Source: Tetracentron sinense
Taxonomy: Eukaryota; Streptophyta; Magnoliopsida; Trochodendrales; Trochodendraceae
DNA length: 64,000 nucleotides
Assembly: GCA_015143295.1 (NCBI GenBank)
Contig: CM026574.1
Location: 11,534,938-11,598,937 of the forward strand
Reading direction: 5' to 3'
Position numbers and translations under genes: made by a program
In this document: positions 2,072 through 37,815 of the stretch, piece by piece
Layout of the letters: each line of letters begins with the position of its first letter
Position numbering within the stretch: the stretch's first letter is position 1
Notes under the pieces: generated by a model
What the model saw: the letters and a program-made list of their open reading frames with translations, nothing else
The model's database searches: none
Told to the model about the DNA's origin: nothing

Positions 2072-2137
2072 ATTATACGCTTATCCCCAATACATATCCT
2101 AATATTTCCTTATCGATACCGATACTTTGAACCATGG

Positions 2138-4427: not shown

Positions 4428-4633
4428 CCTTTAGTACCATCTATAGGATCCAAAACCCAATGCCGGCCATGAGAACCCCCTTCAGACTTGCCGCTGTCAA
4501 TGGCATCAAGCACATCTTCTGCTGATAACGGAGAAATTTTGTACGTTCCATCACTAGTGAGAGTGTCGTTCACAAGTTTTGTGATGCGCTCTAGCGTTTC
4601 TTGGGCACCATCCTTGCGAAGATCTCCCGAGTC
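4428..4633 (-). CDS. SAL1: SAL1 exon 4
   Basis: 68 codons plus 2 nt, from DSGDLRKDGAQETLERI to HWVLDPIDGTKG. The DPIDGT box carries the metal-binding and catalytic aspartates of the Li+-sensitive phosphatase superfamily. The acceptor is CTCTAG. The donor is AAAGG|GTGAGC, so the next exon must begin with the last base of a Gly codon. Confidence 0.88.
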
Positions 4634-7600
4634 CTAGAGATAATAGTCAAAATCATAAGACTAGCTTCAAAATTAAAAAGGGGAGAAGAAAAATAAAATA
4701 ACTGCTACACTCTCTGGCAATTATTGTAACTGATTCATCACTTAAATGTGACTTTAACCACTGAAAAGTCTGCACATTACCTCCTCAGCCACCAATGAAA
4801 AGGATTCAGAAGGAAGTTCCTTCTCCAGCACAAAGCTAACCAGTGCCTGTGATCCTGAGAAATCCGGACAAAAGATTGACACATAAATCTATTTGATTTG
4901 CAATTGCAGTTCCTTTTGCAGAAACCACAAAAGCAGTTTCAACCTTATAATCTGAAGAAGTGATAATTACTAAGTACTAACCATTCACCCAAAAAATATT
5001 TATACTTAATTGGTAGTTATCTATTTACATGCCGAATCAAAGTCAAATCAATCTTACAACCAAAGTAAACCTAGACTAGAAGCTTGGGGGTTGTACCATG
5101 AGTGCCATGTCCGCACACAAAAGGTATATTAAATAGGCCAATATTTATCCTGTCACAATCTAGTTTGCAATTGAGCATGCAAATTATATTAGCAAATTCC
5201 CTAAACTTAGTGGTAAGCTATTCTACTGTGAACCTCAATTTATAAGACGTGCTCATGCAAAAAAAAAAAAAATCAATATTCAAAATTTGACAACCACAAT
5301 ACCTGGCAGCAACATAGAGGTAACTAGATAGATCTATGCAAAATTGATGAAGACATCCAGAAGCCCAATGAATTTCAGGTTTACCAGAGGTGGAGGAAGA
5401 AGAACAAGAACCCGTGTCACTTTGGATAGGTGACTTGGGGTATTGAAGACCTCATATGCACACATAGATCATTAGGAAGACCCCACACTAGGAAGGTGTG
5501 CATATGGGGCTGGTTTAGTGTGATTTAGCATAGTTTTAAATCTCAATGGACTGGGCTTTTAGTTAGGGAGGGAACAATTTATTAGTATTGGGTTATTATA
5601 GTCTTTTTATTTGTTTTGGTTATTTGAGTCTTTTTACCATTAGGGTTTCAACTATTTAAAGACTCCTTTTTGTTGTAAATTTTTAGTTAGTGAATGATAA
5701 TCAAAGAATAGAGTGCTTTTGAATATTCTAATGTGATGGGATTCGGTATGATGCCATTGGAGTGATTCCCTAAAGCTCTAAGGTATACTTTTGATCTTTT
5801 TTTTTGCTAGTTCTCATTTAGTTCTTTCGATTCCCTATTTTGTTCTTGAAACCCTAACCTATCAGACACCGACTCTGCCCAATCCGCATCTGTATATGCC
5901 TCAATCCTTATGTGATCATGAGAAGCATATAGGAGACTTTTTCCAGGAGAAGACTATGTCAGGACGGGTGAGGAAGAGCTAGATGAGTCTGCGTATCAGT
6001 CTCTGGTATCTTCCTGTATCAATAAATGAGTCCTCATTGTTGTCCCCAAGTCTATGGTTTTGCTCAGTAGGTGTAGCAATAGGTTAGCATCCCATCATCC
6101 CTGTTTCTTTCAACAGATTAAGAACATACTTTCTCTAAGATATGAAGATACCCTTCTTGGGTCTAGCAACCTCAATTCCTAGAAAGTATTTTATTTCTCC
6201 CAAATCTTTAATTTCAAATTGCAAGGTGATGCTTCAACATTTTTAGCTCTTCCTGATTATTACCTATCATAACAATGTCATCAACATAGATTATGAGGGC
6301 AGATACTTTGTCTTTGCCTCGACTATGCTTGATGAATAGTATGATCAGATGACTCTGCCTGTACCCATACTTAATCATAGTTCTTCGAAACCTATCAGAT
6401 CATGCTCTCGGGGATTGGTTTAGCCCATATAGGGCTTTCTTCAACTTAAAGACCTTTCCTCCAACTGTAGGAAACTTAGAATCAGGAGGCATCCTCATGT
6501 ACACTTCTTCCTCCAACTCACCATTGAGAAAAATATTGTTTACGTCAAGTTGTTGTAGTGACCACCCTTGATTGGCAACAAGGGAGATGAGGACTCGAAT
6601 TGAGTTCATCTTTGCAACAGGATCAAAAGTCTCTTAATAGTCAACACCATACGTCTGAGTGTAGCCTTTTGCAACAAGCCTGGCCTTGTACCTTCCATCA
6701 GACTGATGTTTTATGGTGAAGACCCACTTACAACCCATTGGCTCTTTTCCTTTTGACAGGTCAACAAGATCCCACGTAGCATTCTTCTCGAGAGTCCGTA
6801 TCTCCTCACACATTTCCCACAAAAACAGAAGACAAATATGAGACAAATGCACGATATGATGGAGCCATGGAGTTGTAGGTAACAAAGTGGAAGATAGGAT
6901 ATTAGGTGCATGTACGAATTCCTTTTCTAATAGCAATAGGACAATTAGCATCATTAACAACAGGAGACATAGGAGGAGCGTCAGTGTTACCTGAGATAGG
7001 ATGATCAGAGGAGGCTTCTTGGCAGGGAAGATGAGGTTCATTCTCCTTTGTCTTGAATACACCTACAACTCCTCCTTCACAGCAGGAGTAACTTCATTCT
7101 TCCATGCTCACGGGTATAGGTGAGGGAGAAGACAACTCTTCATCCTGATGCTCCCCTTGCATAGATGTCTTTGGGCTAGGAAAGAAAGGAGTGGTTTCAT
7201 AGAAGGTGACATCAAGAGACATAGTGTTTCCGGGACAAAGGATGGTAGCACTTATACCTTTTCTAGGTAGAAGAATAGCCAACAAAGATGCACTTTAAGG
7301 CCTTGGGATCAAGTTTGGAGCGGTCAAGGTGATAAAAATGAGCATAACAAACATACCCGAACACTTTGGGCGGAATAGGAAACATGGGAGCCTGTAGAAA
7401 AAAGAGATCAAGCGGGGTTTTGAAGCTCAACAGTCGAGAAGACAAACAATTCATGAGAACGGTGTCAGTGAGTAAGACTTCAGACCAAAAAGAGGATGGA
7501 ACATGCATAGTAAAAAGAAGGGATCGAGTGATCTCTAACAAGTGACGGTTCTTCCTTTCAGCCACACCATTTTGTTCAGAGATTTTGCCACAAGAAGTTT

Positions 7601-10600
7601 GATGTTCAATCTCATGTGTAGAAAGGTAGGAAGAAAGATCACTAGATGTGTACTCACCCCCATTATTAGATCGAAGGACTTTGATGGGGGTGCCAAATTG
7701 GGTGCGAACAATAGTATGAAAGGTCTTAAACACATAATATGCATCACTTTTAGCTTTCAAAAGGTAAACCCAAGTGACCCGTGAGTGATCTCATCCACAA
7801 AAGTAAAAAAGTATTTGTAACCAAACAGAGAGATAGTGGGAGATGGACCCCAAACATCATAGTAAATTATATCAAAAAGAGAACTACTTCGATTTCCATG
7901 AAATGAGTAAGAAGATCTATAATGTTTCGCAAGTTCACAGGTCACAATGTAAATTTAAACATGAAGAAGATACAAAATGGGGAAACATCTTCAACAATAC
8001 AAAAGAATGGTGACCAATTGTCAATGTCACTGCATCATATCGGTAGCATGAGAGCTACTCTCAAAACAAGACTGATGAGGCAACCGCGGTGAATGATCTA
8101 GCGGGTATAAGCCATCTTTCTCATGTCCACTGCCTATAATCCTCCTCGTCACCATATCTTGGAAGAGACGATGAGTGTGAAATAATTTAATACTGCAGCT
8201 TAAAGATTTTGTGATACTGCTCAAAGAGACAAAGACATAAGATTAGTTGCAAAATTAGGAACATGTAAGACAACTAAGGGGTATAGAGGAAGTAGCAGCA
8301 AAACTACCCTTCCCTAAGATAGAAGAAAAAAAACCATCGGCAAAACTCTATATTTTCCTGAACAAATATGAAACGAGGAGAAGAGAGATAACATACCTGT
8401 CATGTGATCAGTAGCTCCTGAATCAATGATCGATGAGGGGTTGGTAATGGAAAGAGAGGCACTGTGTGCAGAAGCTGATGTGCCTGAGTGGGCAAACAAA
8501 GAAGCAGTTGTAGAAGGGGTCTCTCACCGAGACATGAAGTGACGAAGAGCCTCAACCTCCTCTCAGGATAGTCCAAAATTGTGCCTGGTGCAAATGAGGG
8601 ATCCGATGATGTAGAACCAATTGACTCGGCTAAGTGGGCAAAGGTGCCACTCATGCCTCCAAAACGGCCGCTCGAGCGACCTCCTCAAATTGCAACTGTT
8701 GGCGATCTTGAAAGATGACCATGGAGGTTCCAACAGGTCTCCTTGGTATGTTGAGTACGGGCACAATGCTCATACTTGAGCTTATCTTTATCATCCATAG
8801 TTGGCCCTATATTCCTGCCTTTACCGTGACCACTACTCCAACTACCTCTTTGAGACATAATCGCCAAAGCATACCTTTCGTGGGTAGAGGCATGTTGCAT
8901 TGTACTTTTCCTACTTTCTTCAATCAACAGATAGGAGTACACTTGATTAAGTGAGGGAAGGGTCTCTTTACTCAACACTTGGACCCAAGATTGCTAATAC
9001 TCAAGAATTAGACCAGCCAAGAATTCAAAGATCCGATTTCCTTCTATCCATTTTTTTACTTCTGTGGCATCCTCGAGGTTGGAGAGTTTAAGATCTTGAT
9101 GGTGATCCAACTCTTCCCACATTCTCCTCAACTGGGAGACGTAGGTAGCAAGAGTCTTCTCTCCTTGACGTAACTAGAAAATACTTTGCTGCAATTGATA
9201 AATGTGTGTCGTATTCCCCACTTGGGAATAGGTCTGCTCCACAACATTCCATAGGTCCTTGGTAGTGTTTAAGAACAATAAACCACCACTGATGTCTGGC
9301 TCCATAGAGTGAAGGAGCCATGACATAACAAAAGAATTCTCAGTACTCCACTTCTCATAGTCAACGGAGGGTTTGTCGTGTTTGGCTACCTTCATAGTAA
9401 TATGATCCATTTTTTGGCTCCCATTGATGTATAGCTTGGCTGATTGGGACCATGCCAAGTAGTTGACTCCATTTAATAGAATAATAGTAATCCCTTGATT
9501 AGGGACATCAACACTACGCCCACTCGACCCAAGTGAAGGGTTGCCCGAAGAGGAAGTTACTTCTGGCATACTTGAATCTTCAAAAATCTACCAACAACCA
9601 ACACCACACTTCAAACAAGCTTCAAATCAAGCACTACACTTCGCCTCAAGAAGTACACACTCGTAGACAAAAACACAAACACCTTCTAGGTGTAAAACAA
9701 GCACTACACTTCAAAAACACACTTTAAATCATCAAAACAAACACCTACCAACTGAGGGAGTCAAATACAGTCATATGTAAGCTGTTCCAATCCCAAATAG
9801 GTCATTCTCATACCTGTCCGTATGGCTGAAGCACAAAAAACTCCAACCAGCAGCCTATATACCCCTTAAAACCATCATAGTAACCTCAAATCAATGAGGT
9901 TCAGCAAGATACCACTTCCAAAGGGTAGGAATGAAAAAGGCGAACCAAGAGGGCGTGATTTCTTCATCAAAAAACAGCTCAGTGAAGAGGAGATGAAGAT
10001 CATTCACTTGAGTTATTTTTCTGGATTTTTTTTCCAATTTCTGTAAAATCCTCGTAGAATCTTCAATACATATCCAAATCACATGAAATGGGGCTAAAAA
10101 ATTCAGACAAATGAGCTCTACTGAAACCATACCTTCAAACAACCAAGCTCATACTCTTGGTCCATACGGCTGGCGTCAACCATACAGACGGTGATGTCAC
10201 CATAGTCGAGCCCCTCCTTTGGTTGGTTGCTTTTGCTTTAAATGAATTCTTTGGAAATTTGGATGTGCTCTGATACCAAGTTGGAATCCAAGAACAAGGG
10301 TTTGGATGAGAGAAGAAGAAGAAGAACAAGAAGAGAAGAAGGAAGAATAGAGAGAGTGCTTAACACGTAAGTCTCCTCTTCTACTATTATAAATATGAGA
10401 TAAATTACAAGATTACATAAATGCCCTTACTAACAAAAAGGAAATAAGGACCTAACATAAGTGAGGACATAAATGCCCTCACACTACAACATAACATAAC
10501 AATATTCTCAACATATACTTGAGTATTTGTTCCCGGCTCACGCTCCGAGATCTGCACAATAATGAGATATTGTGTGTGTAGATTTTGGGGGCGTGACAGA

Positions 10601-13600
10601 TGTGGACGAGTTGGGAGTGTACAATCTGCTTCTCGAATAGGAGGGAGTGATAGTCTAATTGTGTTTTTTGGGGGGTGGGGTGGGGTTTCTCCTTTAGCTA
10701 GATTACTTTAGGTCAAAACTTGACACTTTTATACTTATTATTATCTCAATTTCTTTCAAACAAATTGCAAATTATACAATATTTCATGAAATATTAACTG
10801 AATTCTGTAAAATAATTAATACCTTTAGCCAAAACTTTGTTGACCCCGGAATTAACAATAATTAATTCAGTCGAAGTTTCAAACCATGCAAGTGGCGACT
10901 TCAGATTTTCTTAGTGCCACTTCCAGTTCTGACCGGGGAGAGTTTCCACAGAAAGAAGATAAAATATCATGCAATGTAAAAGTCGGCCTTTGGGCCACTT
11001 CCTTTAAGAACACAAGAAGTTCATTCCGATCAAGGCCTCCTTTTATCAGCATATCATTCTCCTTTTTAGCAAAAGAATCCATGGACCTCTCCTTGATCAC
11101 ACCAAACAGCACAGTAGCGAAGTTGATGTGCTTATCACTTACCTTCCTCTCAGTCGGCTCAGAGAGTGAGTTCAAAGCATTAATTATATGCTTTTTGCGC
11201 CCAATCAAATTCAGCCACATCTTTACCGCATGTCCACTTCGTCACCTCATCAACATCCTTCTATTTACTCAGTCTCTATCTCAACAGAAACTTCCCTGAA
11301 CTCCAATGACTCACTTGCCACCCAGGATGGGTCTGAACGCTGAAGTATCCAATTTATACAATCGGGGGACACCTTGCTCCTTGCACTTTCAACCTATTGG
11401 GCTTTAACCGAGAACATCATGGACAAAGAGGTCGGTATCTAAAGTCGTGCTGAATTATCAAAAGCTCGAAATTCCAAATCGATAATACAAAAGATTGGAC
11501 ACTGGAAAGAGCTCCCTAAGTGTCACCCTTTAACGAACAGATTATTCTTCAATATCAAATGGTTCCACATGCAAATCTAGAGCAGACAGCTATTTCTGCT
11601 GGCCCACCACGTGGATACCGAATGATCAGAGCTATAGTAATTGTTGCTAGAACACATAACAATCCACACTCAATCGAACACAGAACAATTCACACTCAAT
11701 CTTCTCTATACTTTCTTGATATTGCAATCTCCATCCGAGGGGTCATTCATTGGACATAGCTAGACTTCTGGGCAAGCAAAAACGTGTTATCCTCTAGGGT
11801 TACGAATTCTAAGTACTGATTGTTTTTTTTTTAAACGAGGAAAGCTGGGGTTTAGGCGGACGCAGCGGACCCCGACCAGATTTATTAAAAAAACTCAAAA
11901 GAAACAGAGAGGGGGGACGGAAAGAAGAAGAGACCGCTACAGGGGCAGACCCCCGAGGCTACACACAAGACCCAACTACAATGGACAAAGCCCAAATGCA
12001 AACACACACAAAACCCTAGGAACCTGGCCCCAAACAAGAAGCCTCACATCTCGTATACAGATAAATAACGAGTGCCCCTTGACACTCTTCTAGTCCCACT
12101 CGAACAGAGTGTCCACTTGCCACAAGGGGACTCATAATCACCAACCTTATGAGGAATCTGAGATTTAAGGCAACAGATAGGAGGAGGAGACTTATATCTA
12201 GATAACGAGTTTAGAGGAAATGAGGAATATTGTCCTCCTCCACGTCCTCGATCCCAGGCTCAAGAGCATCAACGACAACATTCTCCTACGGAGCAGAAAT
12301 TAAGATTTCTGGCTTCTTCTTGCGACTCTTCTTATTTTTCTTCCTCATAGAAGAGCTAGACCCATCCACGCCAAGAGAATTCGACCCAACCTCTTCAACA
12401 ATCGAGGTTGGGCTATGGGGCCCATAAATCATAGGGATCGAATCTGGCCCAAGAGGAGTGCTAGAGTCTGCCAAAGATTCCTCAAGCAGAACCACGGACT
12501 TCTATGTACTGATTGTGTACCATGGAAATCTGATGATTTGTGAGATTTTAACATTCCAGCAGGCAGATCCTCCAGTAGCGGCCTAGGGATAGACGACGCG
12601 ATATTCAGGCAGAAGCTCCCAAAGACTGGCTAGGTCCAGCATTGTGATGATTCCTTGAATGTTAGATTGATTTGCTGGACAAAATAGACAACTGGAGCGT
12701 CAGGGACTCGTTTCCGATCCTTGGCAATAAGGAAGTGCAGCGTTACTCCCCATTTCCTGAGATCTTTGACATGGATCAAAGGAGAGAGAATATCTCTGTA
12801 GATCTCGTCATAGATTATTAAACTTGCAAGAATTATCATTTCTCCACATAGTCTTGGGAAGAACGTATTTCAGGCCACAAAAATCAACACAATAATACAT
12901 CATAAGCATCACACCTTACATAAACAAGAAACACAACCTACTCTTTACACTTTTTTTCTTCAACCTTACATGAGAAGGTTGAGAAATAGAAGATATAGGA
13001 ATCTTTACACGCCACTGGAGAATTAATGATATTTTCGGGTACCTTGCAGGCAGGCTTGCACCTTCCAAACAGGAGGCTATAACTTAGGTCCAACTTGGTC
13101 CCCATGCAGGCATGGAACACGCTCATATGGCATTACCAGTCGAAGGGACTGTTCACCATCTGATCTGCATACTTCTCTGCAGTCACAGTAACTCAAAGGA
13201 CTAACATCCAAAGGGCCTCAACCTCACACCAGATTTCAAAGCAGGTAAGGTAGCACTAGCTTGTATGGTCCCTTTAGAATTAGATACCCCAGAAGGTTAA
13301 ATCCTTTTTCTAATGTTGCCTTCATGAGTATATAGAGCATAAGACAGGTAAAGAAAGAATTTGATGAAAATTAAAGTTTATCTCATGCTGAAAGGCATCA
13401 AGCAGTGATAAAAGTTAGATCAAGTCAAAATCTCTTTTCAAGCGATGAGCCGGTGATGAAAGGAGTGCTCTACAAACATATTTGAGATGGTTTGATCATG
13501 TGCAACAGAGATCAATGAAATAGAAATTCTCTACAGCTGAGACGGTGATGAAAGGAGTCCTCTACAAACATATTTGAGATGGTTTGATCATGGAAACAAA

Positions 13601-22600: not shown

Positions 22601-25600
22601 GATCATCCCAACGAGAGAAAGGAGGATTCTATTTCAAGTCTTGGAAGGGACAGGTGCTCCCCCGTGGAGAGCACGGATTGTTCTCAGCAGGTCCAACCCG
22701 TCGCAGGGAATGGGTCAGAGTTGAGGTTTGGCTGGGTTCAAGTTAGTGAGGAAGGGGTGATGCCCTTCAATGAGGAATCGGCTCTCCGGGGCTGGTTTTA
22801 GGAGGATGAAGTGCTTGACTCCGTCGAGATGGGCGTGGGGCAGGCAACATGGATTTGGTGTCTATGCAGAGTATGCAAATTCAAATCTATGAGGAGAGTG
22901 AGAATGGGGGATGAGATCAGGGCATGTCGGGGCATGGATGTAGGGCTAGGGCGAATGGTGATACATTGGGTAGGGCGGAAGCAGTAGTGATGAGGGAGAT
23001 CGAGGTGCCGAGTTCAAGGCTCAATCATACTAGGAGGCATTCAGATCTGGTCGTTCCTGACTCCTCTTGCACGAGCCAAATCCCAGCTTGTTTTGCGGAA
23101 GTGACGTCGGGACGTGGGGCAAAGGATCAGGCTTCGTCTCATCCGGGAGAGATAGCACCTACCAATTCACAGCAAGAAGCGAACCCGCCGGAGAATGGGG
23201 ATACACCAATTGGTCCCTTGAGAGGTACGCCTAAACCCTCCTTGCTCGAGATCTCTCCTCTTCAACCTTCAAGGGGGAAGAGGGGGGATCTAGAGTTTTC
23301 ATTGTGTTCCTTTGTTGAGTCTCTTGATTCAATTTCGCCAGTTTATGGAGCTATGATACCTTAGTCTAATGAGGAAGGGGGTGTAGGACCTAATTTGATG
23401 GTGGATGGCAGAGATCTCACTTAAACTCCACCAAGACCCAAGTCAGTGCCTCCCTTGACCCATCCATAGTTTTCAGAGCAGCCAAGGGGGTCAAGGGAGT
23501 AGCTCCCACACATCTCATAGCCGTAAGACTGGGACATTGTTTCCAAGGTCCCCAAGTCAGCTAAAGGAGCTTGGAAAGTTTCTCGGATTATCATTTGTGG
23601 GTCGTGAAAAGGAAGCCAGGGCTCTATTTCTGCGTCTCACAAGAGAGGGAGTCGAGAAGTCAGTTACTTCCTGTCACAAATCAAAGACAAGGCGGGGGGT
23701 CAGCTCAGCGTTGGAAATGAGGAGACTGGAGTGTAGGGTCAATTATGACAGACCAGGATCTCAGAGTGTTCCGTGCAGTCGAAAGGGCTCTAAAGTTACT
23801 AAATGACAGATTTCTCCATTTTGTCATGGAATGTTTTGGGGTTGGGTTTACCCGAAAAGCACATGGTTGTTCAAAGGTTGGTAAGAGCTAGAAAGCCGGC
23901 TATACTTTGTGTTCAGGAAACCAAATTATAAGAGGTTAAAGACAGCATCATTCATGATTTGTGGGACATTTCTACTCCTAACTGGCTTGCAATTCCATCT
24001 TTAGGAGCCTCAGGAGGGATCCTATTGATTTGGGATAGGGGGAAGCTAGAGGTGGTAAAGTCAGAGTTAGGGGCTTACTCGATTTCCATATATTGTCATT
24101 GGATGGGTGAGGAGTTTGCATGGGTATCTTCAGGAGTTTACGGTCCCTCTGGAGGGTTAGATGATGCATTTTTTTGGGAGGAGTTAGATAATGTTAGTGT
24201 CCGTTAGAGAGCTCCTTGGTGTTTGGGTGGAGATTTTAGCAGTATCCGTTTCTCCGAGGAGCGGAAGGGAGGGTGTGCGGTGAATGCCAAGATGAGGAGA
24301 TTCGGGGCATTTATCGTGCGGCATGAGTTGATGATTTCCCGATGAAGGGTCAGTTGTTTACGTGGGTTCACTCAATTTCCAGTAGCTTAGCGAGCAGATT
24401 GGATAGGTTCCTTTGCTCCCCAGAATGGGAGAGCTAACATCCAAACATGATCCAGTCTTCTTTGCCTCGGCCCATATCAGACCATGTTCCTCTTTTGCTG
24501 GAGTCCGGTCATTTCAGCGGAGGTCCCACTCCGTTCAGGGTTGAGAATATGTGGATTCAGGATGACAGGTTTAAAGGGGTTGTGGCGGAAGTTTGGAATG
24601 CTAGGAGGGGGGGCAGGGATCAGCCAGTACAAGATTTGGGCTCAAGTTAAAGGCGCTCAAAGCCTGCCTTAAAACCTGGAATAAAGAAGTGTTTGGTAAC
24701 ATCTCAGCTACATTAGCTGGCCTCCTCCAGGGCATAGGGCCATTGGACATAACAGAAGAGCCGAGATCTCTTTTTGTTGAAGAGGTCCACTCAAGGGAGA
24801 TAATGAAGGTAGGATATCTACATACGGCCAGGTTGGAAGAGATAAGCTGGAAACAGAAGGCTAGAGTCCAGTGGCTCAAGGAGGGCAATTGTAATACCAA
24901 ATTTTTTCACAGAATGACTAATTTTCATAGAAAAAGTAACTTTATTTCCAAGCTCAAGGTGGATGGAGAGTGGCGGGAGGGTGCAACAACGATTGAGGAA
25001 AGTGTGGTGTCTTTCTATCAAGACCTTTATAAGGAGAAGAAATGTTGGTGTCCCAAATTGGAAGGTTTATCTTTTGATTGTCTGCCAGAAGATCAGAGGG
25101 AGTCCTTGGAGGATGTTTTTGAGGAGGAGGTCTTGAGAGCCATCTGTAATATGGCTGGGGATAAGGCCCCCGGCCCAGATGGATTTACTATCGAATTTTA
25201 TCGGTTTTGCTGGGATATTATTGGTAAGGACTTCCTAGCGGTGATGAGAGAGCTGTTCTAGTTAGGTCGTTTTGATAGAGTGATTAACAACACTTTTGTA
25301 GTGTTGTTACCGAAACACAAAGGAGCGGAAGATATTAAAGATTTCAAGCCAATCAGTCTCGTGAGTAGTGTGTACAAGATTCTCGCCAAAGTCTTAGCAA
25401 GCCGTCTTAAGAGAGTGATGGGACACATAATATCCCCCAACAAGGAGCCTTTGTGGGTGGCAGATAGATTCTTGATAGAATTCTAATAGCTAATGAGTTT
25501 ATTGAGGACAGGATTAGAGCTAAGGATTTGGGATTATTGTGTAAAATGAATATGGAGAAAGCCTATGACCATGTTAACTGGGAGTTTTTGGGCTATGTTA

Positions 25601-28600
25601 TGCATAGAATGGGTTTCGGTCCCAAGTGGTGTCATTGGATGCAGTTGTGCATATCATCTGTGTCTTTTTCCATCCTCATTAATGGAAGCATAGTGACAAA
25701 GTCGGGGTTCGGGAATAATTCGGCAGGAATCAAGTTCGAAAAATTCGAAAAAATTCGGAAATAAAATAAAGTGTAAATTAATAATTATAAACATATACGG
25801 AACAATTTGATTAAAATATATAAAAAAAATTAAAATTTTTGAATAATTCGGGAATTATTCGTAAAAAACGCGAATAAAACGGAAAAACGTCGTTTTTTTA
25901 AAATTCGCGAATTAAACGCAGAACAATTCTGCAGTTGAAAAATGCGCGAATTAAACGCGTTTTTTTCAAAAAAACGGCGTTTTTTGTTACTTGGAATGGA
26001 AGTCCAGTGGGCTACTTTCGCAGTTCTAGGGGGTTGAGACAAGAGCACCCTCTTTCCCCATTTCTTTTTATCATGGTCTCAGAAGCTTTGAGCAGGATGT
26101 TATCTCGTGCTGATGGGATGTTTTTCGAAGACTTTTCCCTAGGTAGAGATAGGTTGAGGATCTCTCACCTCCAGATTGTCGATGATACCTTAAGTTTTGC
26201 AGACCTTCAAGTCAGGACCTCGGTCATCTGAAAGGTATTCTTCATTGCTTTGAAGTCATTTCCGGCTTGCGGGTCAATATGGCTAAATCCGAAATAGTGG
26301 GAGTCGGGGAAATCTCAGAGTTAGATATTCTCACGGAGAATCTCGGATGCAAGGTTGGGTATCTTCCATCAGTTTATCTTGGCATGCCCCTTAGCGCTCG
26401 TTTCAAATCTAAGGCAGCTTGGACCCCGGTCTTGAAGAGGTTTGCCAAGCAATTATCCGGGTGGCAGGCGTCCTTTTTATCTAAAAGGGGGAAGTTAACG
26501 TTGATTCACAGCACCCTGAGTAGCCTACCTACCTATTTTATGTCTATGTTGGTCATTCCCCGCTAGGTAACTGTGTCTCTAGAACGCATGTAGAGAGAGT
26601 TCCTTTGGCACGAGAAAAGTGGTCAGGTTAAGTATCATCTTGTTAATTAGAAGCAGATCTGTCGTCCAAAGAGGGAGGGAGGTCTCAATTTGAAGTCGTT
26701 GTCTCTGGTCAACAGGGCTCTCCTTGGAAAATGGATATAGAGGTTCGGGGAAAAAAAAGAGTCTCTGGCGTTCGGTCATCGCTGCCAAATACAAGGAAGT
26801 TTCTTGTTGGGTTCCTAAGGAGGTGAAGAGGCATCCCTCGTGGTTGAATTCTTGAATTCGTGTCGCACGGGGTGGGGTTGTGAAAGGGGATAATGTCAGT
26901 TGCACGATTGGTTGTCCCTTTCTTCGAATTCAAGGTAGGTGATGGGGCGGAGGTTTATTTCTAGATGGATGTTTGGAGTGGATCATCAAGGCTGCAGGAT
27001 GATTTTGCTATTATCTTTCGTTTGGCATTGGATAGGATGGCGTCAGTCGGGAACTACATCAATAGGAGAGGTGCGGGGGGCGTATGGTGTCCCAAGCTAA
27101 GGAGAGGACTTAATGACTAGGCGATAGTTGAGTTCAGCAGGTTGTTAGAGCGGTTAGGGTCTCTTCCCTCAATTTCTCAGGGTCGGGATTGTAGAGTATG
27201 GTCAGTAGGCAACAAAGGTCGTTTTTCAGTGAGATCTATGGTTCAATTGCTTGAAGCAGGCCCTTCCACTTCCTTTCCTCATAGGGCTGTGTAGAATCCA
27301 GGTATTCCATCTAAAGTATCTTTCTTTCTATGGAATGCGGCTTTGAACAGAATTCTCACTTGTGATCACTTGAAAAATAGAAGGTGGAGGTTGGTTAATC
27401 GTTGTTTTATGTGCCTCCAAGTGGAAGAGTTGGTAGATCACCTTCTCTTGCATTGTCCAATAGCTCATGAGATTTAGAGTTTCTTTTTCCTCTTCCTTTC
27501 ACAATGTCTAATCATGTTGGAATTTGGTAAGTAGGGAAGGGGGGAAGGGTCAAGGTTGGCATTGTGGAAGATTTTGTCGGGTGCCATAGCATGGTCCATT
27601 TGGGGCGAGAGGAATAGGAGAGTGTTCGAAAACTCTTCCTTATCCCCTCCCTCATATTTGTGCTAAAATCCGGTTTTTGATGTTGGAGTGGTGCTCAGTT
27701 AGGCAGGATAGGGTGAGATTAGGCATGATCCTTACCGGGTTTCTGTGATGCTTTTGGGGGCATCTTGTTGGTGGTTAGTATGGGGTTTCATTTTTTTCCT
27801 TTTATTTTGTGCCTGCATCGGTTCACATTCTCATGAACTATGCGTTTTATGTTACTTTGTATCTGCTTTATGCTTATTTTTGAATTGCTTGGATTACCGA
27901 TAAAAAAAAATAATTAGAATTGTTTGTGTGATGAGTTGGGAATCCAATAGGAACCCTGATACATTTCAACAAGGAGTGTACAATGGATTTTTTGTGGCAA
28001 ATTGTGAATCCACTTCGAAGTTTGAACCCCTCAATTATATTTTCAATAATTATTGAAAACAAGGGGAAAAAAAAGATACTCAAAGCCATTCCCCATTCAA
28101 ACCCTGCACAATCATTTGTCCAAGAGGGCAAGGCCATGATCTATCAGACCTCCTAAACCCCAATTGTGCATGCCTTCAATTTTCTCACCACATCTTTGTT
28201 AGCCATACAGGGCCTCTAACAATGTCAAGTTGGTCCTCACAAGATGCAATTCTGCTGTCATAGTTTAGTATTAGGTAACCCTCAATATTCAAAAAGTACA
28301 CAAACAGTCAGAGACCAAGAAAATCCACAAAATCGTGTTACATACCAATGTAGGAAGTGTTCATCTAACGCACAATTATTTTTTGACAGGTAACTGTAAA
28401 ATTATGCACTTAACATGTTGAGAAAAGATGGAAGAAGTTCTCCTAAAAGAAAGAAAGAGAGAAAACAAGAAATTAACACCAATAATCCAATCCGCATATC
28501 AAATCCAGCATGGGACCAACTATGCTTTATAAAGCAGAATATGAGTGACCAATAAGTAACATATTCATACAATTAGTGTTGCCAAGATGAGGATGTTGAG

Positions 28601-31600
28601 ATGGATGAGTAGAAAGATTAGGAAAGACAAAATAAGAAATAAGTGCATTCGAGAGAATTTTTTAGTAACTTTAATAGGTGGTAAATAAGGGGAAATCAAC
28701 TAAGACAGTTCAGACATGTTCAATGAAGACCAGTAATGGCACTAGTGAGATTGAAGGAGTTGGTGCAGAGTGAAGGCTCAAAAAGGGCGAAGGGAAGGCC
28801 AAAAATTATCTAGATGGAGATAGTACAAAAAAAATTTGATAGAACATGCTTTGACCGAATTAATGGCTTTTAATAGAGTAGAAAGGTAAAACAAGATTCT
28901 TTTGGCCAACTCCAACTAATTAAGATAAGGCACAAATGATGATGATGATCTTGAATTCAATATAATTTGTCTCAACTGAACATCTCTTTTCGAATCAACT
29001 AATCTCAATCTGAAACTACATTTACCCAACATGTATTCATGTATGTCCATACGAGCAAAATTATGTGTGTTAAACTGCTAATCAAAGCATTCTGATGGAT
29101 TGTCTTCAACCCATTTGCACCCAGCCTTGTTTGCTTGGTAGGAATTTATGACGGATAAATAATTTCCAAATAAGAACCAACGACAAAAGTTACCACATGA
29201 GGACAAATAGAGAAGAAGACAAAGACCATATTAAAAAAACTACACATCATTTTTTCACAATGAACTCTACGTAAGACCACCTCAATTACAGATATTACAA
29301 TTTTAAAAAGATAAGATAATCCATATCTACTTATTAGCAAACCTCAATTAGATAAGATAACCCAATCTACTTATTTCGTAATCATCAAGTTTCTTGATAT
29401 TAATACACATTTGATTTATAATGGATAAAACATGTGAAAATAATCAGAAATTGATTCAAAATTATTAACATGTAGAGTTTCAATTTCACCTCTAAATGTA
29501 TGTAACCTTACACTTTTCACCTTCTCATCACCTTTGTAGGATTTTTATAAAGTGTATTTCACACTTCATTAGCTATTGCAACTGAAATTCGTTCAGACAC
29601 AGCCTCGTCCATAGCTTGGCAAATAAAGAACAATGCTTTATTATCCTTATTTTGATTCTCTCTCAAAGTTTCATCCTGGATTTAAGAGGCCATCAAGTGT
29701 TGTTTGATACTTTGATAGACGAGCTCATCATAACCATGTACAATGATCTTGATCCGGAGAAGAAATAAGTGTAAATGAACTGTTAGTGGATCCTTGCAAT
29801 GGTGAATCAATAGAGCTATCCATCAGTTGTGAATTTTCAACAAGTTTTTTTATCTTCTATATTTATTGATAAGTAATTTGCCTGTATCTGGATTAAACAA
29901 TTAACAGCCCTTAGTATGATCACTGTAACCAATGAAAATGCACTCCTCCCCTTCTTCATCAAATTTCTTTCTTTCCTCATCTGTAATATGCTTGTATGCA
30001 ACACACCCAAATACTCAAAGATCTTTAAAATTTTGTTTATATCCACTCTATGTCCTCCTGTGCATATCATGAACACTCTATGTAGGACACGAGTTCAAAA
30101 TCAAAACGGAACAAGCAACAGATTCTGCCCAAAATGAATCGAACATAAATCAAATGGATGTTAAGATGTGCTTTTTTGAATGGTTTGCTTGCAGAAGTAT
30201 ATATTGAACAGTCTGAAGGTTATGCAAAGAATGGATACAAGATAAAGTCCTTAAATTGAAGAAGGATCTATCTAGACTGAAACAAGTGCGTAAGGCGTGT
30301 TACACCCGAATTGATTCGTATATCCACAAGCATGGTCTTTACATGTGTCCTTATGAGCACATTGTACATCGAATTTAATTCACATGGCGATATGCTTATT
30401 GTGTTTTTATGTGGATGATTTTACGGGAAATAACCTGAGTATGTTGATGAATTCAAGGAGGCATGACTAGCCAATTTAAGATGATATGGGACCCATATCT
30501 TACTTTCTTAGAATTTAATTGTTGCAAACAAGTAATGGGAATTTTATCTCAGAGGATAAATACACAAAGAATTTATTATAAAGATTAAGATGGAATCATG
30601 CAATCAAATCAAATCTCTAGTTAAAGCAAGATCGGATAGTCATGTGAGCTAGTTAGTTTTAAAAGTATCCCATGTTGTACAATAGATCGCAATTTGCAAT
30701 ATATCGCTAGATTATAATTTTTCGTGTGACAAATAGGCCTAACTCAGTTATAAAACTACATCAATTCTTAGCGTGGTCAAAATTTTGACCGAAGTGAAGC
30801 GATTTTGCAAGTGATTTTCCTTGAAGAAAAAATCATTATTTCTTGTGTTTTTGGCTTTATTAAACGTAAATTGACCCTAACGTGCATCTAAATCGAGGAG
30901 AGAAGTGTGGGAGCCCATTTTTCTCAAAAGAAACTACGAGAAAGTATCCCATTTTCTTATATTTTAGCTTTACTCTTTAGTATTGATTTGAATAAGTTCA
31001 AATTCTAGTATGTTGTGTGTTTTCAGCCAATCTATGATTGGCTGAAATTTGTTAATTTTTTATTTTAAAAAAAAGTTTAATTTAAAATTAATTCTTAAAT
31101 TTTTTTTAAAAAAAAAGTAAAACAAAAGGCTTATTTGTAGGCTATTGAATATGGGAATTAAGTATATCAGGCTGATCTATTGATCATTTGATTGGTTGGA
31201 AAGTTTATTATTAATTGTAATTAATTTTATTATAAATTTTTTATCAATAATTCATTATTGATAAATATGAGTATTCGATGTAATGAGTATAATAAAATAC
31301 TTATAAATATTGATTAAAATGGGTAATTGCGTTATATTGAATATGAGTATTATAAAATATCGATAAACATGTGTATTATAAAATATTTTTAAATAAATGA
31401 GTACCAACATTATGTTTGTGAGTATATGGCGTGGTACCATATCTTATGAGGTGGGCACAATATTGCACACATGTAAGGACTAGTATTATCACCAGGCTAG
31501 TAAGGGCAGAGAGTCCGAGATGATGACTTTCAGCCCCCGTGTAATTCTATAGGGATACAATGTATGATGTCTCTTGCCGGCGTTGCACTTGCCAACCTGG

Positions 31601-33183
31601 ATCTTTATAGGGCTATGTATTCTTTTTTTATGAATATTGGATGTAATGAACAATTTATGGATTTTAATCATGTTACATTCATCTCTTCTTGTGATATGGG
31701 TCATATGGCCGCCACCAGCACGTATCTTGGATCCATTGTAAATGACTCTCTAATATTCGCAGTTGTTGTTTTTTATTGTTTTGATTCCTATGTGTGTGTT
31801 TAGGTTTAATTTTAACATTGCCTCAAGTTTCAAATAAAAATTCCTTATTTTTCCTATTTTTTTCCAAGTTTTTCCTAACCAAATAATAACTCCCGGATTC
31901 CAACTTAGTGAGTATGCATAGGAACAATGACAACAAACGTCATCAAGACAAAGGTGACCACTGCTAGGGGGTTTTCCTCTTAATAACTATTTCAAGGGGT
32001 TCTCCTCCATCTAATACCAATTTTAAGAAATTAATACTAGTAAATAATTATTGAACCAAACCAAAAACTTTATTTTTGTTAAAAAAAAATACCCATCTAT
32101 TTATAGATCTTAACAATTTAACAAGATAAGACCAAATACGATAAGATAATCTAAATAAGAAAATAATCACATCCTCGGTCGGTGACGCGAGGAGGGGCAT
32201 CTCGGCTCCCATTTTCTTGCCATTTGTCCCCCTTCTAACCCCATTTAACTGTGGTTAAGATTCATCCACCCTTAGGGTTCACCCCTCTACCCTTGGTTTT
32301 TAGAAAAAAAAAAAAAATTAACTAAAGGGTCAAAAAGAACTAACCCAAGTTAATGGGAGTTGAAGGGTCGGCTATGTGAGAGCGAGGAGGAATAGTCCCC
32401 TCCTCAGCCAACGTGAGGACTATTGCTCATCTAAATAATCCATATCTACTTATCCCATAAATCCCAATAAGTTAAGATAATAACGCAATCGACTTATTAA
32501 AATATATCATTCTTAACCATACCTCTCAAATTCAATGACGCACATGGACACTGATGTAGGACAATTTAGGAGTGATTTTATTTGAAGGAAACCACGAAAA
32601 ACTTAGTTCTTTTAGAATTAAAAAAAAAGACCCAAACTCAGCAAGGATCACTACCAAACTCATGATACCATGCTTCTCACATCCATATAACTTAATACAT
32701 CACAAAATGTAGGGTCCCATATCTTGGGCTGCATCAAATCCCACCCCAAAAGAAAGAAAGTAAGGATTTGCAGCTAAAAAACGATTTTTAGAATATGGGT
32801 TTTTCACAGATAACAACTTCAATTCCGTTTTTTTGCCCTAAGGGCCCGAGGTGAGGTCCTTCAAGAACAGCATTGCAATCGCAACCTTGGTCTTAAAAAC
32901 ATGAAATTAGGGAACAAGCAAACAGCAGAAATTGCAATCTCAAATGATTAGAATGCTAAATCAAGACCCAAAAGATCGAGTGTTGGAGCTAGTTTACACA
33001 CACCCAAGTGAAGAACGCCATGAATTATCAATGGCGAACAGGACAAAGTATTGATCTTCAATAGTCATCAAAGAAATAACAGATACCCATGTATAAAAGA
33101 GAGGGAAGAGCTCTTGCCTGGCAGAGTCGAGCAGCAAGAGATGCTGCTTTCTTTGCAGCAGCCAGTTCTTTCTCGTAAGACAT
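4428..33183 (-). CDS. SAL1: SAL1/HAL2-like 3'(2'),5'-bisphosphate nucleotidase (PAP phosphatase), exons 1-4, 3' part outside window
   Basis: Four exons, complement(33118..33183, 19232..19307, 4781..4854, 4428..4633), give about 140 residues in frame with no stop. They match the N-terminal third of plant SAL1/FRY1, which turns 3'-phosphoadenosine 5'-phosphate into AMP and is a Li+/Na+-sensitive member of the inositol monophosphatase superfamily. Visible motifs are SPVTVADYGSQA across the exon 2/3 join, FSLVAEEDSGD across the 3/4 join (metal-binding Glu), and HWVLDPIDGTKG at the end of exon 4 (DPxDGT metal site). Exon phases fit exactly (66, 76, 74, 206 nt). Introns are 13,810 bp (GC-AG), 14,377 bp and 147 bp; a fourth starts at 4427 with GTGAGC. 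I found no exon 5 between 1 and 4427, so it should lie beyond the left edge. The start is the first ATG after an in-frame TAG about 60 nt upstream. The intact frame suggests a working gene, but transcription is not shown here. Confidence 0.87.
4781..4854 (-). CDS. SAL1: SAL1 exon 3
   Basis: Two bases complete the Gly codon, then 24 codons reading SQALVSFVLEKELPSESF and SLVAEE. The acceptor is TTTCTCAG and the donor GTAATG. The closing Glu pair contains the metal-ligand glutamate of the family. Confidence 0.87.
4856..5529. other. SAL1 intron 2, proximal part, nothing recognised
   Basis: Intron sequence next to exon 3. No coding region, inverted repeat or known transposon end was recognised. 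Confidence 0.5.
5530..5844 (+). repeat. LTR-like fragment
   Basis: Holds a leader-like stretch (ATTTAAAGACTCCTTTTTG, then GAATGATAATCAAAGAATAG) similar in style to the promoter and R region of plant LTRs. It abuts the truncated end of the copia element but does not match that element's own LTR. Identity is tentative. Confidence 0.3.
5845..7062 (-). pseudogene. Copia reverse transcriptase and partial RNase H
   Basis: Blocks in order: GCKWVFTIKHQSDGRYKAR LVAKGYTQ (near 6700), LQQLDVNNIFLNGELEEEVY (near 6520), KLKKALYGLNQSPRA (near 6410), the LIIYVDDIVMIGN active-site block (near 6280), and a last RNase H piece with TDADW. Several in-frame stops are present. Confidence 0.85.
7263..8500 (-). pseudogene. 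Copia protease and integrase region
   Basis: Protease core SSIIDSGATDHMTG lies near 8430. The integrase core follows at 7945-7263: FDIIYYDVWGPSP, FFTFVDEITH, a GGEYTSSD block and ISEQNGVAERKNRHLLE, ending KALKCIFVGYSS. Catalytic aspartates and the glutamate region are still recognisable, but the frame is broken between 8300 and 7945. Confidence 0.82.
8690..9569 (-). pseudogene. Copia gag region
   Basis: Minus-strand start at 9569 (MPEVTSSSGN). The body reads LLNGVNYLAWSQSAKLYING and KDLWNVVEQTYSQ, typical of copia gag (UBN2 type). After frameshifts a zinc-knuckle region follows near 8770 (EHCARTQHTKETCWNLHG). The first cysteine of the CX2CX4HX4C knuckle is replaced by tyrosine, so the RNA-binding motif is damaged. 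Confidence 0.8.
10282..10513 (-). repeat. Copia 5' LTR plus primer binding site
   Basis: On the minus strand the LTR begins TGTTGAGAATATTG and ends GGATTCCA (232 bp). After a two- to three-base spacer follows TGGTATCAGAGC, complementary to the 3' end of initiator tRNA-Met. A pyrimidine-rich leader sits near its end. Confidence 0.75.
10514..10600 (+). repeat. Possible end of another LTR
   Basis: Ends in TTTTGGGGGCGTGACA, the same kind of end as the solo LTR at 54089-54104. Only this end is recognisable. The rest up to 10878 shows no feature. Confidence 0.3.
10879..12840 (-). pseudogene. SLY1: SLY1-like (Sec1/Munc18) pseudogene, two separated parts
   Basis: SLY1 binds syntaxins in ER-Golgi vesicle fusion. 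The minus strand at 12840-12530 encodes its early part: YDEIYRDILSPLIHVKDLRK, WGVTLHFLIAKDRKRVPDAP VVYFVQ, then in another frame SSIPRPLLEDLPAGML. A later part lies at about 11390-10879: SLEFREVSVEIETE, then LIGRKKHIINALNSLSEP, DKHINFATVLFGVIKERS and GGLDRNELLVFL. The middle of the protein is missing, several frameshifts and stops are present, and a retroposon sits between the parts. It lies inside SAL1 intron 2 on the same strand. The first part begins after an AG, so an exon border may be kept, which favours a decayed gene copy over a processed one. Confidence 0.72.
11823..12504 (-). mobile_element. Internally deleted LINE-derived retroposon with target duplication
   Basis: A 682-bp insertion flanked by GTACTGATTG on both sides (11813-11822 and 12506-12515). 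Its poly-A tail is the T run at 11823-11832, so it reads on the minus strand. Its 5' part is an open frame (MVLLEESLADSSTPLGPDS...SSMRKKNKKSRKKKPE, 12495-12286) like a LINE ORF1 tail. Its 3' part carries AATAAATCTGGTCGGGGTCC and TCCGCCTAAACCCC, tail words shared with LINEs at 49.2 and 58.4 kb. No RT region is present. Confidence 0.75.
12841..13439. other. SAL1 intron 2, nothing recognised
   Basis: No coding region or transposon end recognised on either strand. Confidence 0.5.
13440..13815 (+). pseudogene. RTE-type LINE 3' fragment with a 97-bp tandem duplication
   Basis: The end translates as ARGRPKKTWMEAIRR-like sequence (13650-13710, KAPKGQGDD* region with frame breaks), the plant RTE C-terminal signature. 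Upstream, about 60 bp (TGATGAAAGGAGTGCTCTAC...) is repeated at 13453 and 13550, including the RWFDHV-like block (GAGATGGTTTGATCATG). The piece ends in TTGAGGTAAGACTTGGAC. Confidence 0.6.
14455..16385 (-). pseudogene. RTE-type LINE C-terminal part, interrupted
   Basis: On the minus strand from 16385: KTEYMECNFS, RVEALDKIDDL-like and LDSIIHKDERLEDDVAHRIS, VEWLKWRRAF, then a YGAECW-type block (PYGAKCW at about 16040). After element B the stretch from VEWLKWR to YGAECWATKK is repeated (15000-14831), followed by MMMLRWMSGKTRKDKIEN. It ends near LIEVMDFNRAECETRVVLGK with an ATGATGA tail at about 14460. Several stops. Confidence 0.8.
15002..16003. mobile_element. hAT-like non-autonomous element B with 8-bp target duplication
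   Basis: 1002 bp. Starts CAAGGTTTGAAATTTCG and ends with the inverted CGAAATTTCGAACCTTG (16/17). It is flanked by ATCTTCAT on both sides (14994-15001, 16004-16011), the 8-bp duplication expected of hAT. Both ends are arrays of AAATTTCG/TTTCGACG words. There is no open frame; the core is AT-rich. Confidence 0.8.
16646..17925. mobile_element. Long-inverted-repeat element carrying an L1 RT fragment
   Basis: 1280 bp with about 75-bp inverted ends starting GGGAAGGGATCCGTAGACA. It inserted in an AT run, so the target duplication cannot be read. Inside the left end is a CT-rich tract and inside the right end a GA-rich tract (17587-17700), partly complementary. The middle holds an L1 RT remnant. Confidence 0.7.
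17165..17330 (+). pseudogene. L1 LINE reverse-transcriptase scrap
   Basis: Reads IYKIKSKVVDNFLPQVLDDL and ISPTQSAFIAGRLIHA, then after a one-base shift DDVLLAQVHF. This is the fingers region of an L1 RT (SPTQSAFIPGR...DNVLLAQE type). No other LINE part is beside it. Confidence 0.7.
18663..19231. other. SAL1 intron 2 next to exon 2; one unrecognised small ORF
   Basis: An open frame on the plus strand at 18703-18894 (MPKDQEPPFAIFVNHKKECD..., 63 codons) has a protein-like composition but I do not recognise it. It has no visible neighbours or promoter and is probably a chance frame or gene scrap. Confidence 0.3.
19232..19307 (-). CDS. SAL1: SAL1 exon 2
   Basis: 25 codons plus 1 nt, reading KVQKALLQSDVQSKSDRS then PVTVADY and the first base of Gly. 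The acceptor is TTTCTCCAG and the donor G|GTTTGT. This is the substrate-side segment just after the first helix in SAL1 family members. It lies between a SINE on one side and a nested hAT/LINE block on the other. Confidence 0.87.
19797..19974 (-). mobile_element. tRNA-derived SINE with target duplication
   Basis: 178 bp flanked by ATTGTGTGTAC (19786-19796) and ATTGTGTGTGC (19975-19985). On the minus strand it has an A-box-like TAGTTGCTCCATTGGTAGG, a B-box-like GGTTTCGAGTCT about 45 nt later, and an A tail (T run on the plus strand from 19798). This is the standard SINE layout. It lies about 0.5 kb from SAL1 exon 2, inside intron 1. Confidence 0.7.
19986..20529. other. SAL1 intron 1, nothing recognised
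   Basis: A-rich stretch (20075-20220) and unique-looking sequence; no feature seen. Confidence 0.5.
20557..23806 (+). pseudogene. LINE 2 ORF1
   Basis: Opens MMASRNRYFAVESKSFELQE and continues through several frames. The last recognisable block is FPRSPSQLKELGKFLGLSFV GREKEARALF at 23537, matching the ORF1 end of LINE fragment 1. The central part is low-complexity and charged (21674-22160). Internal stops (for example after 20808, 22180, 22460) show it is dead. Confidence 0.7.
23806..27480 (+). pseudogene. LINE 2 ORF2: endonuclease and reverse transcriptase
   Basis: The endonuclease begins ILSWNVLGLGLPEKH (23820) and continues PAILCVQET, GASGGILLIWDRGKLEVVKS, SSGVYGPSGG and GGDFSSIRFSEERKGG. 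RT blocks are GDKAPGPDGFTIEFYRFCW (25159), FKPISLVSSVYKILAKVLAS (25347), MEKAYDHVNWEFLGY (25553), then GLRQEHPLSPFLF (26032). At the active site (26165-26200) the sequence reads HLQIVDDTLSFAD, Ile-Val in place of the usual Phe-Ala before Asp-Asp. A C-terminal LTCDHLKNR...CFMCLQVEELVDHLLLHC ribbon lies near 27400. Confidence 0.85.
25689..25994. mobile_element. hAT-like MITE in LINE 2, 8-bp target duplication
   Basis: 306 bp flanked by AATGGAAG (25681-25688 and 25995-26002). Removing it and one duplication copy restores the RT reading NGSPVGYFRSSRGLRQ. Ends are CATAGTGACAAA and, inverted, CCAAGTAACAAA. The body is a low-complexity mix of GAATTCG, CGCGAATT and AAACG words. Confidence 0.75.
27911..28514. 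other. SAL1 intron 1, nothing recognised
   Basis: No gene, inverted repeat or transposon end recognised. Confidence 0.5.
28515..28955 (+). pseudogene. RTE-type LINE 3' end
   Basis: Begins near GGGACCAACTATGC (the YGAECW region) and reads MRMLRWMSRKIRKDKIRNKC IREN, then with shifts LRQFRHV-like, EGSKRAKGRPKI and GFNRVER-like blocks, and ends in ATGATGATGATG. It is the same family as the minus-strand copy at 14.5-16.4 kb, whose tail also has ATG repeats. Confidence 0.75.
28956..29589. other. SAL1 intron 1, short repeats only
   Basis: Contains GATAAGATAATCCATATCTACTTATT (split here: GATAAGATAATCC then ATATCTACTTATT) at about 29306 and a similar run at about 29350, which recur near 32440. These look like scraps of one repeat. 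No gene seen. Confidence 0.4.
29590..30137 (-). pseudogene. Ty1/copia integrase fragment
   Basis: Read from 30137: TFWAESVACSVLILN, SVHDMHRR, then LVFGCVAYKHI (frame shifts), EERKKFDEEGEECIFIGYSD, HTKGC, LFNPDTGKLLIN. This is the C-terminal part of a copia integrase (29820-30137). The part below 29800 is probably the same element but is less clear. Confidence 0.72.
30140..30640 (+). pseudogene. Ty1/copia reverse transcriptase fragment, inverted to its neighbour
   Basis: Reads DVKCAFLNGLLAEVYIEQSE GYAKNGYK, then RIDSYIHKHG, EFNSHGDMLIV and DEFKEA blocks and ends near KMESCNQIKSLV. It begins within a few bases of the integrase fragment but on the opposite strand. Confidence 0.72.
30650..31910. 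repeat. Degenerate hAT-like repeat and AT-rich stretch
   Basis: Left part has ATATCGC/GCAATT words. The right part (31740-31880: GATTCCTATGTGTGTGTTTA, then TTTTAACATTGCC and TTTTTCC-rich text) is related to the right arms of elements B and C. 31200-31430 is made of TATTATAAAAT/GAGTAT-type repeats. Ends were not located. Confidence 0.4.
32173..32418. mobile_element. MITE, inverted ends CCTC..GTYGGYGA
   Basis: 246 bp with imperfect inverted ends (CCTCGGTCGGTGACG against CCTCACGTTGGCTGAGG). The core has GTGGTTAAGATTCATCC and CCCTTGG/CTAAAGGG, a sequence shared with repeats at 33.4, 34.0, 56.2, 57.3 and 63.1 kb. The rest of 31911-32172 and 32419-33117 is intron with no recognised feature. Confidence 0.45.
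33118..33183 (-). CDS. SAL1: SAL1 exon 1 (start codon, 22 codons)
   Basis: Encodes MSYEKELAAAKKAASLAAR followed by LCQ, the Lys/Ala-rich N-terminal helix typical of plant SAL1. The exon ends CTCTGCCAG followed by GCAAGAG, a GC splice donor; no GT lies close by that would keep the frame. The ATG is preceded in frame by a TAG, so no longer N-terminal (plastid-targeting) extension is encoded directly upstream in this exon. Confidence 0.87.
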
Positions 33184-33263
33184 TGAAACCACAGGAGCAG
33201 TTCTCGTTATTCTCCTTCTCAAGGGGAAAGGATGTAATAGTGTCTAGCGAGTTTATTCTCCTT

Positions 33264-33607
33264 CACAGCCAATTGCGATTGAATTGGGTGAGAGTTCAAT
33301 CGCATCCACAGGACACCACGTGTCCCTATTAACTCTTATTATCCATATTACACGTGTCCCTATTAACTCTTATTATCCATACTAACCCAGGGTTCAATAA
33401 TTTAACTTGGGTTTTCAGAAAAAATAATTTTTTTTTTTTTAACTCTATTTAAGAACTTTTAACTCTAATGGTTAATATTCTTTTCTAAAAAGGAATGTTA
33501 GATTATTGAATCTCAGGGTTATTGAATCTTAACCACAGTTAATGAGAGTTAACATAGACAGGTGGGTACGATTGAACACTCCCCTAATTCAATCGCAATT
33601 GGCTGTG
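33264..33607. mobile_element. 344-bp MITE just upstream of SAL1
   Basis: Inverted ends of 39 bp (36 match) starting CACAGCCAATTGCGATTGAA. The core includes GGTTCAATAATTTAACTTGG and its near complement, so the whole may fold as a hairpin. A 32-bp unit ACACGTGTCCCTATTAACTC... is present twice (33317-33381). It starts 80 bp upstream of the SAL1 ATG, so it lies in the 5' UTR or promoter. No clear target duplication. Confidence 0.7.
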
Positions 33608-37757: not shown

Positions 37758-37815
37758 AGTGGTATTAGAGCGCGATCGCGGGTTCGAGCGCACACAGCGT
37801 AGCTACTGGGGGGAT

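Follow-up and report, generated by a model that had tools for sequence, protein, structure and literature searches.

What does a gene whose introns have filled with transposons still encode, and is it still under constraint? The question is raised by a stretch of 64,000 nucleotides from Tetracentron sinense (here the window, C24:11534938-11598937, C24 being its contig in the searched genome of 1.16 Gb and 1,479 contigs), for which a reading made from the sequence alone had proposed a SAL1 gene stretched by nested transposons with its frame intact.

Structure and identity of the SAL1 gene on C24

The four proposed exons of 66, 76, 74 and 206 nt lie on the minus strand exactly where the sequence-only reading had placed them, and they join in phase. 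Their spread over 28.8 kb also stands, but the whole gene is larger, with eight exons over 37,441 bp (minus strand, C24:11568120 down to 11530680). Exon 5, which that reading had suggested seeking to the left, was found there together with exons 6-8 on the same contig, and the left end of the window, which it had taken for flanking sequence, is intron 4. The parts of the gene are as follows, in window positions unless a contig is named.

33118-33183, minus strand: exon 1 in its present coding form, 66 nt, with ATG start and GC donor (CAG/gcaaga)
19308-33117, minus strand: intron 1, 13,810 bp (1,999 bp in the second copy, on C2, described below)
19232-19307, minus strand: exon 2, 76 nt
4855-19231, minus strand: intron 2, 14,377 bp (15,299 bp in the C2 copy, with mostly different inserts)
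4781-4854, minus strand: exon 3, 74 nt
4428-4633, minus strand: exon 4, 206 nt, ...HWVLDPIDGTKG; also matches the PDB sequence
1-4427, minus strand: right part of intron 4 (whole intron 6,422 bp; 7,798 bp in the C2 copy)
C24:11532732-11532942, minus strand: exon 5, 211 nt, beyond the left end of the window
C24:11532553-11532651, minus strand: exon 6, 99 nt, left of the window
C24:11532311-11532464, minus strand: exon 7, 154 nt, left of the window
C24:11530680-11530852, minus strand: exon 8, 173 nt, left of the window

All acceptors are AG and all donors GT, except for the GC of intron 1, and the phases join without a stop; the spliced model gives a coding sequence of 1,059 nt and a protein of 352 residues, which bears out the intact frame. 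GC-AG introns are put at ~1.2% of introns in plants in PMC6310983. The next downstream GT was considered as the donor of intron 1; judged by eye, its use would lengthen exon 1 by 31 nt and put the sequence out of frame, so that the GC donor is needed for the conserved protein. In the genome search exon 1 found itself at 100% and the C2 copy at 90% identity.

The spliced protein carries DPIDGTKG at residue 134 and WDHAAG at residue 285, and we take DPIDGT and WDHxAG to be the metal-site motifs of the inositol-phosphatase fold. It scores 498.6 bits against NCBIfam TIGR01330 (curated cut-off 267.05), matches Pfam PF00459 at 2.5e-49, and matches Arabidopsis SAL1 (PDB 8f9y) at 7.1e-177 over 348 residues. 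The SAL1 identity proposed earlier is borne out by the TIGR01330 score and the 8f9y match, which also rule out exon-like matches arising by chance. The C24 gene is a SAL1/HAL2 3'(2'),5'-bisphosphate nucleotidase (3'-phosphoadenosine 5'-phosphate, or PAP, phosphatase), and PAP phosphatase activity is predicted for its product.

A second SAL1 gene on C2

A search of the whole genome with Arabidopsis SAL1 gave 25 matches, of which the 16 at 64% identity or above are pieces of the C24 gene and of a second gene on C2 (C2:42292323-42319644, 27.3 kb, 8 exons, 393 aa). The sequence-only reading had named, as what would speak against it, a second intact SAL1 locus with the exons of the window silent; the first half of that pair, a second intact gene, exists. 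A pair of distant relatives lies at C17:31951465-31958732 and C1:57248838-57255689 (44% identity in the best pieces, matched pieces ~7 kb each), and weak pieces (E of 1 or above) occur twice on C2 near 30.8 Mb and once on C13.

The C24 gene shares with the C2 copy the number of exons, seven of the eight being of equal length, and 92% amino acid identity; intron 2 is swollen in both, and both have an ABCG-type transporter gene downstream in the same relative orientation, the two transporter genes being 79% identical. The C2 copy differs in having a 41-residue leader, an intron 1 of only 2.0 kb with a GT donor, and mostly different inserts. The neighbouring genes are:

L005:5447-7420, minus strand: ABCG-type gene on the C24 side, frame open over 657 aa
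L027:8610-9998, plus strand: ABCG-type gene on the C2 side, 463 aa of open frame, which runs up to the limit of the sequence retrieved
44913-47300 of the window, minus strand: CHX-type cation/H+ antiporter, 795-aa open frame of 2.4 kb, with Pfam Na_H_Exchanger and CHX17 domains

The CHX gene lies upstream of C24 SAL1 and has its best relative in the genome on C6 (81%); none of the 45 genomic CHX matches is near C2 SAL1, the nearest being at C2:43.2 Mb. Chromosomes 2, 5, 6 and 24 of T. sinense are described as collinear in PMC7709256, while another assembly has 19 chromosome-size scaffolds and disputes the number 24 (PMC8810787). The two SAL1 genes are apparently homeologs, most likely left by whole-genome duplication; the ABCG-type neighbour speaks for this, the CHX gene against it. 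Their exon dS of 0.16-0.18 is less than the ~0.38 expected for 59 Myr at the published rate. At that rate a dS of 0.17 equals ~26 Myr, whereas the duplications in the literature are dated to 59 and 82 Myr, so that the pair is of uncertain age. Anchors shared by introns 1 and 2 of the two copies are mostly 22-31% divergent, which suggests an older date than does exon dS.

Transposons in the swollen introns

The following elements were delimited in introns 1 and 2 of the C24 gene.

20440-27911, plus strand: LINE in intron 1, antisense to SAL1; A-rich 3' end at ~27902-27911 by eye, 5' end approximate
25689-25978: insert of ~290 bp nested in the LINE, lacking from the related LINE on C2 as well as from each of three LINE loci used for comparison
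32159-32428: multi-copy element of ~270 bp in intron 1
5951-10229, minus strand: remains of a copia-type retrotransposon in intron 2, with RVT_2, integrase and SH3 domains
15002-16003: multi-copy element of ~1.0 kb with sharp ends, in intron 2
16616-17937: element of ~1.3 kb with terminal inverted repeats of ~60 bp (92%) and at least one other copy (C11, 88%)

The presence of transposons in both introns, one of them with a nested insert, is thus confirmed; 'at least a dozen' insertions had been proposed, and this number, though plausible, was not reached, six being individually demonstrated and one further insert, placed between 28363 and 28993 in intron 1, following from the alignment with C2. 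When intron 1 is aligned colinearly between the two copies, 1,133 of its 13,810 bases chain and ~12 kb are unaligned; the stretch from 32776 to 29073 corresponds to 104 bp in C2. The LINE lies within a stretch of 7.85 kb, between C2 anchors at 20136 and 27984, whose counterpart in C2 is 43 bp. Two of its frames were compared with Pfam and gave no match, so the label LINE rests on the sequence-only reading, the text of the frames and the family copies; as an insert it is individually shown, its 5' end being approximate. A target-site duplication was sought around it and not found, the best exact match being 9 bp. The nearest of 39 other scored copies is 92% identical, and identity of 90.9% over 2.6 kb gives an age of ~15 Myr (at a rate of 3.25e-9 and with equal change in both copies), or up to twice this if all the change occurred here. 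A relative of this LINE, at 64% identity, lies in intron 4 of the C2 gene (C2:42312370-42314084).

In intron 2, copies of the copia match 5951-9684 and 10041-10229, the nearest of 39 other scored copies being 91% identical. The copia claimed here stands as remains, with its right end not fixed and no pair of LTRs found around it. The C24 interval 18748-13858 faces 380 bp in C2, and that from 12828 to 5343, which contains the copia, faces 3.5 kb; conversely, C2 intervals of 3.7 and 6.2 kb face 135 and 8 bp in C24. Together with the contrast in length of intron 1, these different inserts indicate that much of the swelling was independent in the two copies and followed the duplication. One repeat family occurs in both introns of C24, as an inverted pair of 71% identity (14499-14880 in intron 2 and 28513-28899 in intron 1). 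Four anchors link intron 4 of C24 to that of C2, and two of them, at no more than 57-59% identity, may be repeats; a run of C at about 3019-3037 of the window, in the same intron, is a possible weak point of assembly or sequencing. Elsewhere in the window, LINE-like remains lie at 36747-38918 (plus strand, RVT_1 match) and at 58836-61824 (minus strand, RVT_3 and endonuclease-family matches over several separate frames).

That these introns, or the MITE-like element described in the next section, were mis-joined in assembly is very hard to credit: in the single assembly searched nothing was found to support it, and the intron segments align in order with C2 around inserts of which several have sharp family ends. 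Introns of large size are probably not unusual in this order of plants, since those of the sister species Trochodendron aralioides average 2,308 bp and its genes 10.6 kb (PMC6859433), though 14 kb far exceeds that mean. The spans compared here are 37.4 kb for C24 SAL1, 27.3 kb for C2 SAL1, ~7 kb for the matched pieces of the distant relatives and 2.4 kb for the CHX frame. For the published models of T. sinense itself the mean intron is given as 283 bp (PMC7709256), which suggests that many of these gene models may be cut short. Beside the 2,308 bp of the sister species, this value is in keeping with the earlier expectation that gene finders which break at repeats would report only scraps.

A lost leader and the element beside it

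The first 41 residues of C2 SAL1 include 12 S/T, three R/K and no D/E, and in this composition, and when set against Arabidopsis SAL1, which is targeted to organelles (PMC8815814), they resemble an organelle transit peptide, which we regard as putative. At the C24 locus no N-terminal transit peptide is in frame with the core. Instead, the following lie upstream of exon 1.

33206-33256, minus strand: leader remnant, homologous to codons 12-26 of the C2 leader, with gaps of 1, 1 and 5 nt
33254-33620: MITE-like element with terminal inverted repeats, core 33264-33607 (344 bp), outer ends eroded and approximate; abuts the leader remnant on its upstream side
33631-33633, minus strand: upstream ATG, possibly the old start, in the context ACAACA/ATGG; opens a frame of 14 codons that ends inside the element

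The leader loss beside this element and the second SAL1 were missed by the earlier reading, to which the GC donor is a further correction. The remnant aligns to C2 with 35 matches and nine mismatches; its score of 36 compares with 27 at the 99th percentile of shuffles, and none of 2000 shuffles (of single bases, with dinucleotides not kept) reaches it. Upstream of the present start the frame meets a TAG at 33246, with no in-frame ATG in between. It can be argued that only the leader was released from constraint, since the remnant has frame-breaking gaps and the core has none. A new upstream exon, spliced in frame ahead of exon 1, might in principle keep the C24 protein organelle-targeted: the 20 codons ahead of the ATG at 33183 (TLLHPFPLRRRITRTAPVVS) are open and rich in basic residues, with an AG among them (by eye). 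Yet this stretch has no in-frame ATG and is closed by the stop at 33246, no candidate exon is known, and such an arrangement appears improbable.

The element at 33254-33620 is a MITE-like DNA transposon: it is short, has inverted repeats (47 bp, 89% identical to each other in the window copy), and belongs to a family of high copy number and constant ends. A first look gave 5,705 candidates, and among the 40 that were scored many hits extend from base 2 of the query to base 348 or 349. Among 25 loci viewed, which include the window copy and of which L047 is the same place as L030 and others are mis-located or differ, in 16 the shared sequence continues, by eye, for about ten further bases at either outer end. 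No target-site duplication was seen by eye, the outer ends of the window copy being eroded. The nearest of the 40 scored copies are 74-77% identical, which with a symmetric split corresponds roughly to 42-49 Myr. This would make the element older than the LINE, and the core may thus have been conserved for a long period during most of which the leader was already lost.

Did the element enter the leader itself? By itself, the sequence beyond it shows no significant similarity to the C2 leader (p 0.36). That the element went into the leader, and not beside it, is therefore likely but unproven; it may sit beside the leader and may postdate its loss. When the 101-base flank beyond the element was searched against the genome, nothing matched at E up to 10 but the flank itself. 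Within 617 bases upstream of the C24 start there are six ATGs. The element contains four, and another, in good context, follows just past it; these ATGs could block translation of C24 SAL1.

Selection on the C24 copy

Over 352 codons the C24 and C2 genes give dN of 0.038-0.039 and dS of 0.16-0.18 (three methods), or dN/dS of ~0.2, and their cores differ at 28 residues and by no indels. When these differences are polarised with Arabidopsis (an outgroup sequence whose first 350 residues agree by eye with PDB 8f9y), 10 fall on the C24 lineage and seven on the C2 lineage, and 11 could be assigned to neither. A pseudogene throughout was rejected, for in simulations a neutral d of 0.085 yields 59 changes on average, whereas no more than 28 are observed. 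Release from constraint was also simulated; both sets of simulations took half of the changes to be transitions and used a rate of 3.25e-9 (PMC7709256). Had constraint ended 12.3 Myr ago, the probability of no stop would be 0.02 with up to 21 changes and 0.002 with up to 16; for 9.2 Myr these values are 0.17 and 0.04, and for 6.2 Myr 0.45 and 0.34. A C24 gene that is long dead is therefore excluded, and silencing within the last ~6-9 Myr is compatible with this test.

Such a recently silenced duplicate would owe its intact frame to inheritance, useful expression having been stopped by the LINE, by the length of the introns or by the MITE-like element, with the C2 copy sufficing. An intact, leader-bearing gene is indeed present on C2, ATGs do precede the C24 start, and release 3 or 6 Myr ago gives probabilities of 0.67 and 0.45 (no stop, up to 21 changes). 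Even so, silencing seems rather unlikely: there is no clear excess of changes on the C24 lineage (10 against 7, with 11 unassigned), and release ~12 Myr ago or earlier, near the symmetric age of ~15 Myr of the LINE, is disfavoured.

A probable leaderless SAL1 and its known counterparts

The C24 gene is probably a still-constrained duplicate making a leaderless SAL1 that is predicted to be nuclear or cytosolic. The two genes would have arisen as a pair by whole-genome duplication, after which transposons, including the LINE and probably the copia, would have entered introns 1 and 2 on C24 while its exons stayed under purifying selection. Polymerase II would transcribe the long gene, the transposon-bearing introns being spliced out and intron 1 leaving through its GC donor. 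In Arabidopsis, silencing marks and IBM2/EDM2 are reported to matter for the processing of transcripts with intronic transposons (PMC4417168). Translation starting at MSYEKEL would give the 352-residue enzyme without an organelle leader, and the upstream ATGs would lower its yield unless transcription starts downstream of the MITE-like element. The product would then be expected to clear PAP in the nucleus and cytosol, where PAP acts, with the C2 copy serving chloroplasts and mitochondria.

It is tempting to go further and propose that a transposon inserted into the leader of the duplicate created a natural nuclear/cytosolic SAL1 that selection has kept for millions of years; this is tentative, and we hold it to be somewhat short of probable. 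If it is true, PAP is broken down at the site of action of the signal by one copy, while its organelle-targeted twin still works in the usual place. The loss of the leader is weightier than the stretching of the gene, in that SAL1 controls a chloroplast-to-nucleus signal, and the role of SAL1 in each compartment is described as still being worked out (PMC8815814). The locus also offers a natural test, the same exons being present in two copies with a first intron of 2 kb in one and of 14 kb in the other. Among the literature matches listed, no paper was recognised, from its title and the start of its abstract, as describing transposon-linked leader loss in SAL1 or a similar duplicate.

Both transposon-filled genes and the relocation of a duplicate by loss of its leader are of known kinds; C24 SAL1 is a new case, with an internal control in the C2 copy. 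Compared with Arabidopsis SAL1 (8f9y) and the yeast HAL2 family (TIGR01330), the C24 protein is alike along its whole length, and it keeps DPIDGTKG, Cys167 and a second conserved cysteine (189 here, 190 in Arabidopsis); it differs from Arabidopsis SAL1 in having a serine in place of Cys119, in being without the organelle leader, and in being encoded by a gene of 37 kb. Arabidopsis RPP7 and AT3G05410, the latter with ATLINE2, carry heterochromatic transposons in their introns (PMC4417168), and C24 SAL1 likewise combines intronic retrotransposons with an intact coding sequence; for the Arabidopsis genes, measurements were made of how far transcription passes through the element and how this depends on silencing marks. 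For the protein, a parallel is offered by truncated Arabidopsis constructs: SAL1 without its targeting sequence is reported to be nuclear and cytosolic and to complement sal1, while cytosol-targeted SAL1 accumulates poorly and rescues sal1 poorly (PMC8815814). The C24 product would likewise be the core without a targeting sequence; those constructs were engineered in Arabidopsis, whereas this one would be a natural duplicate.
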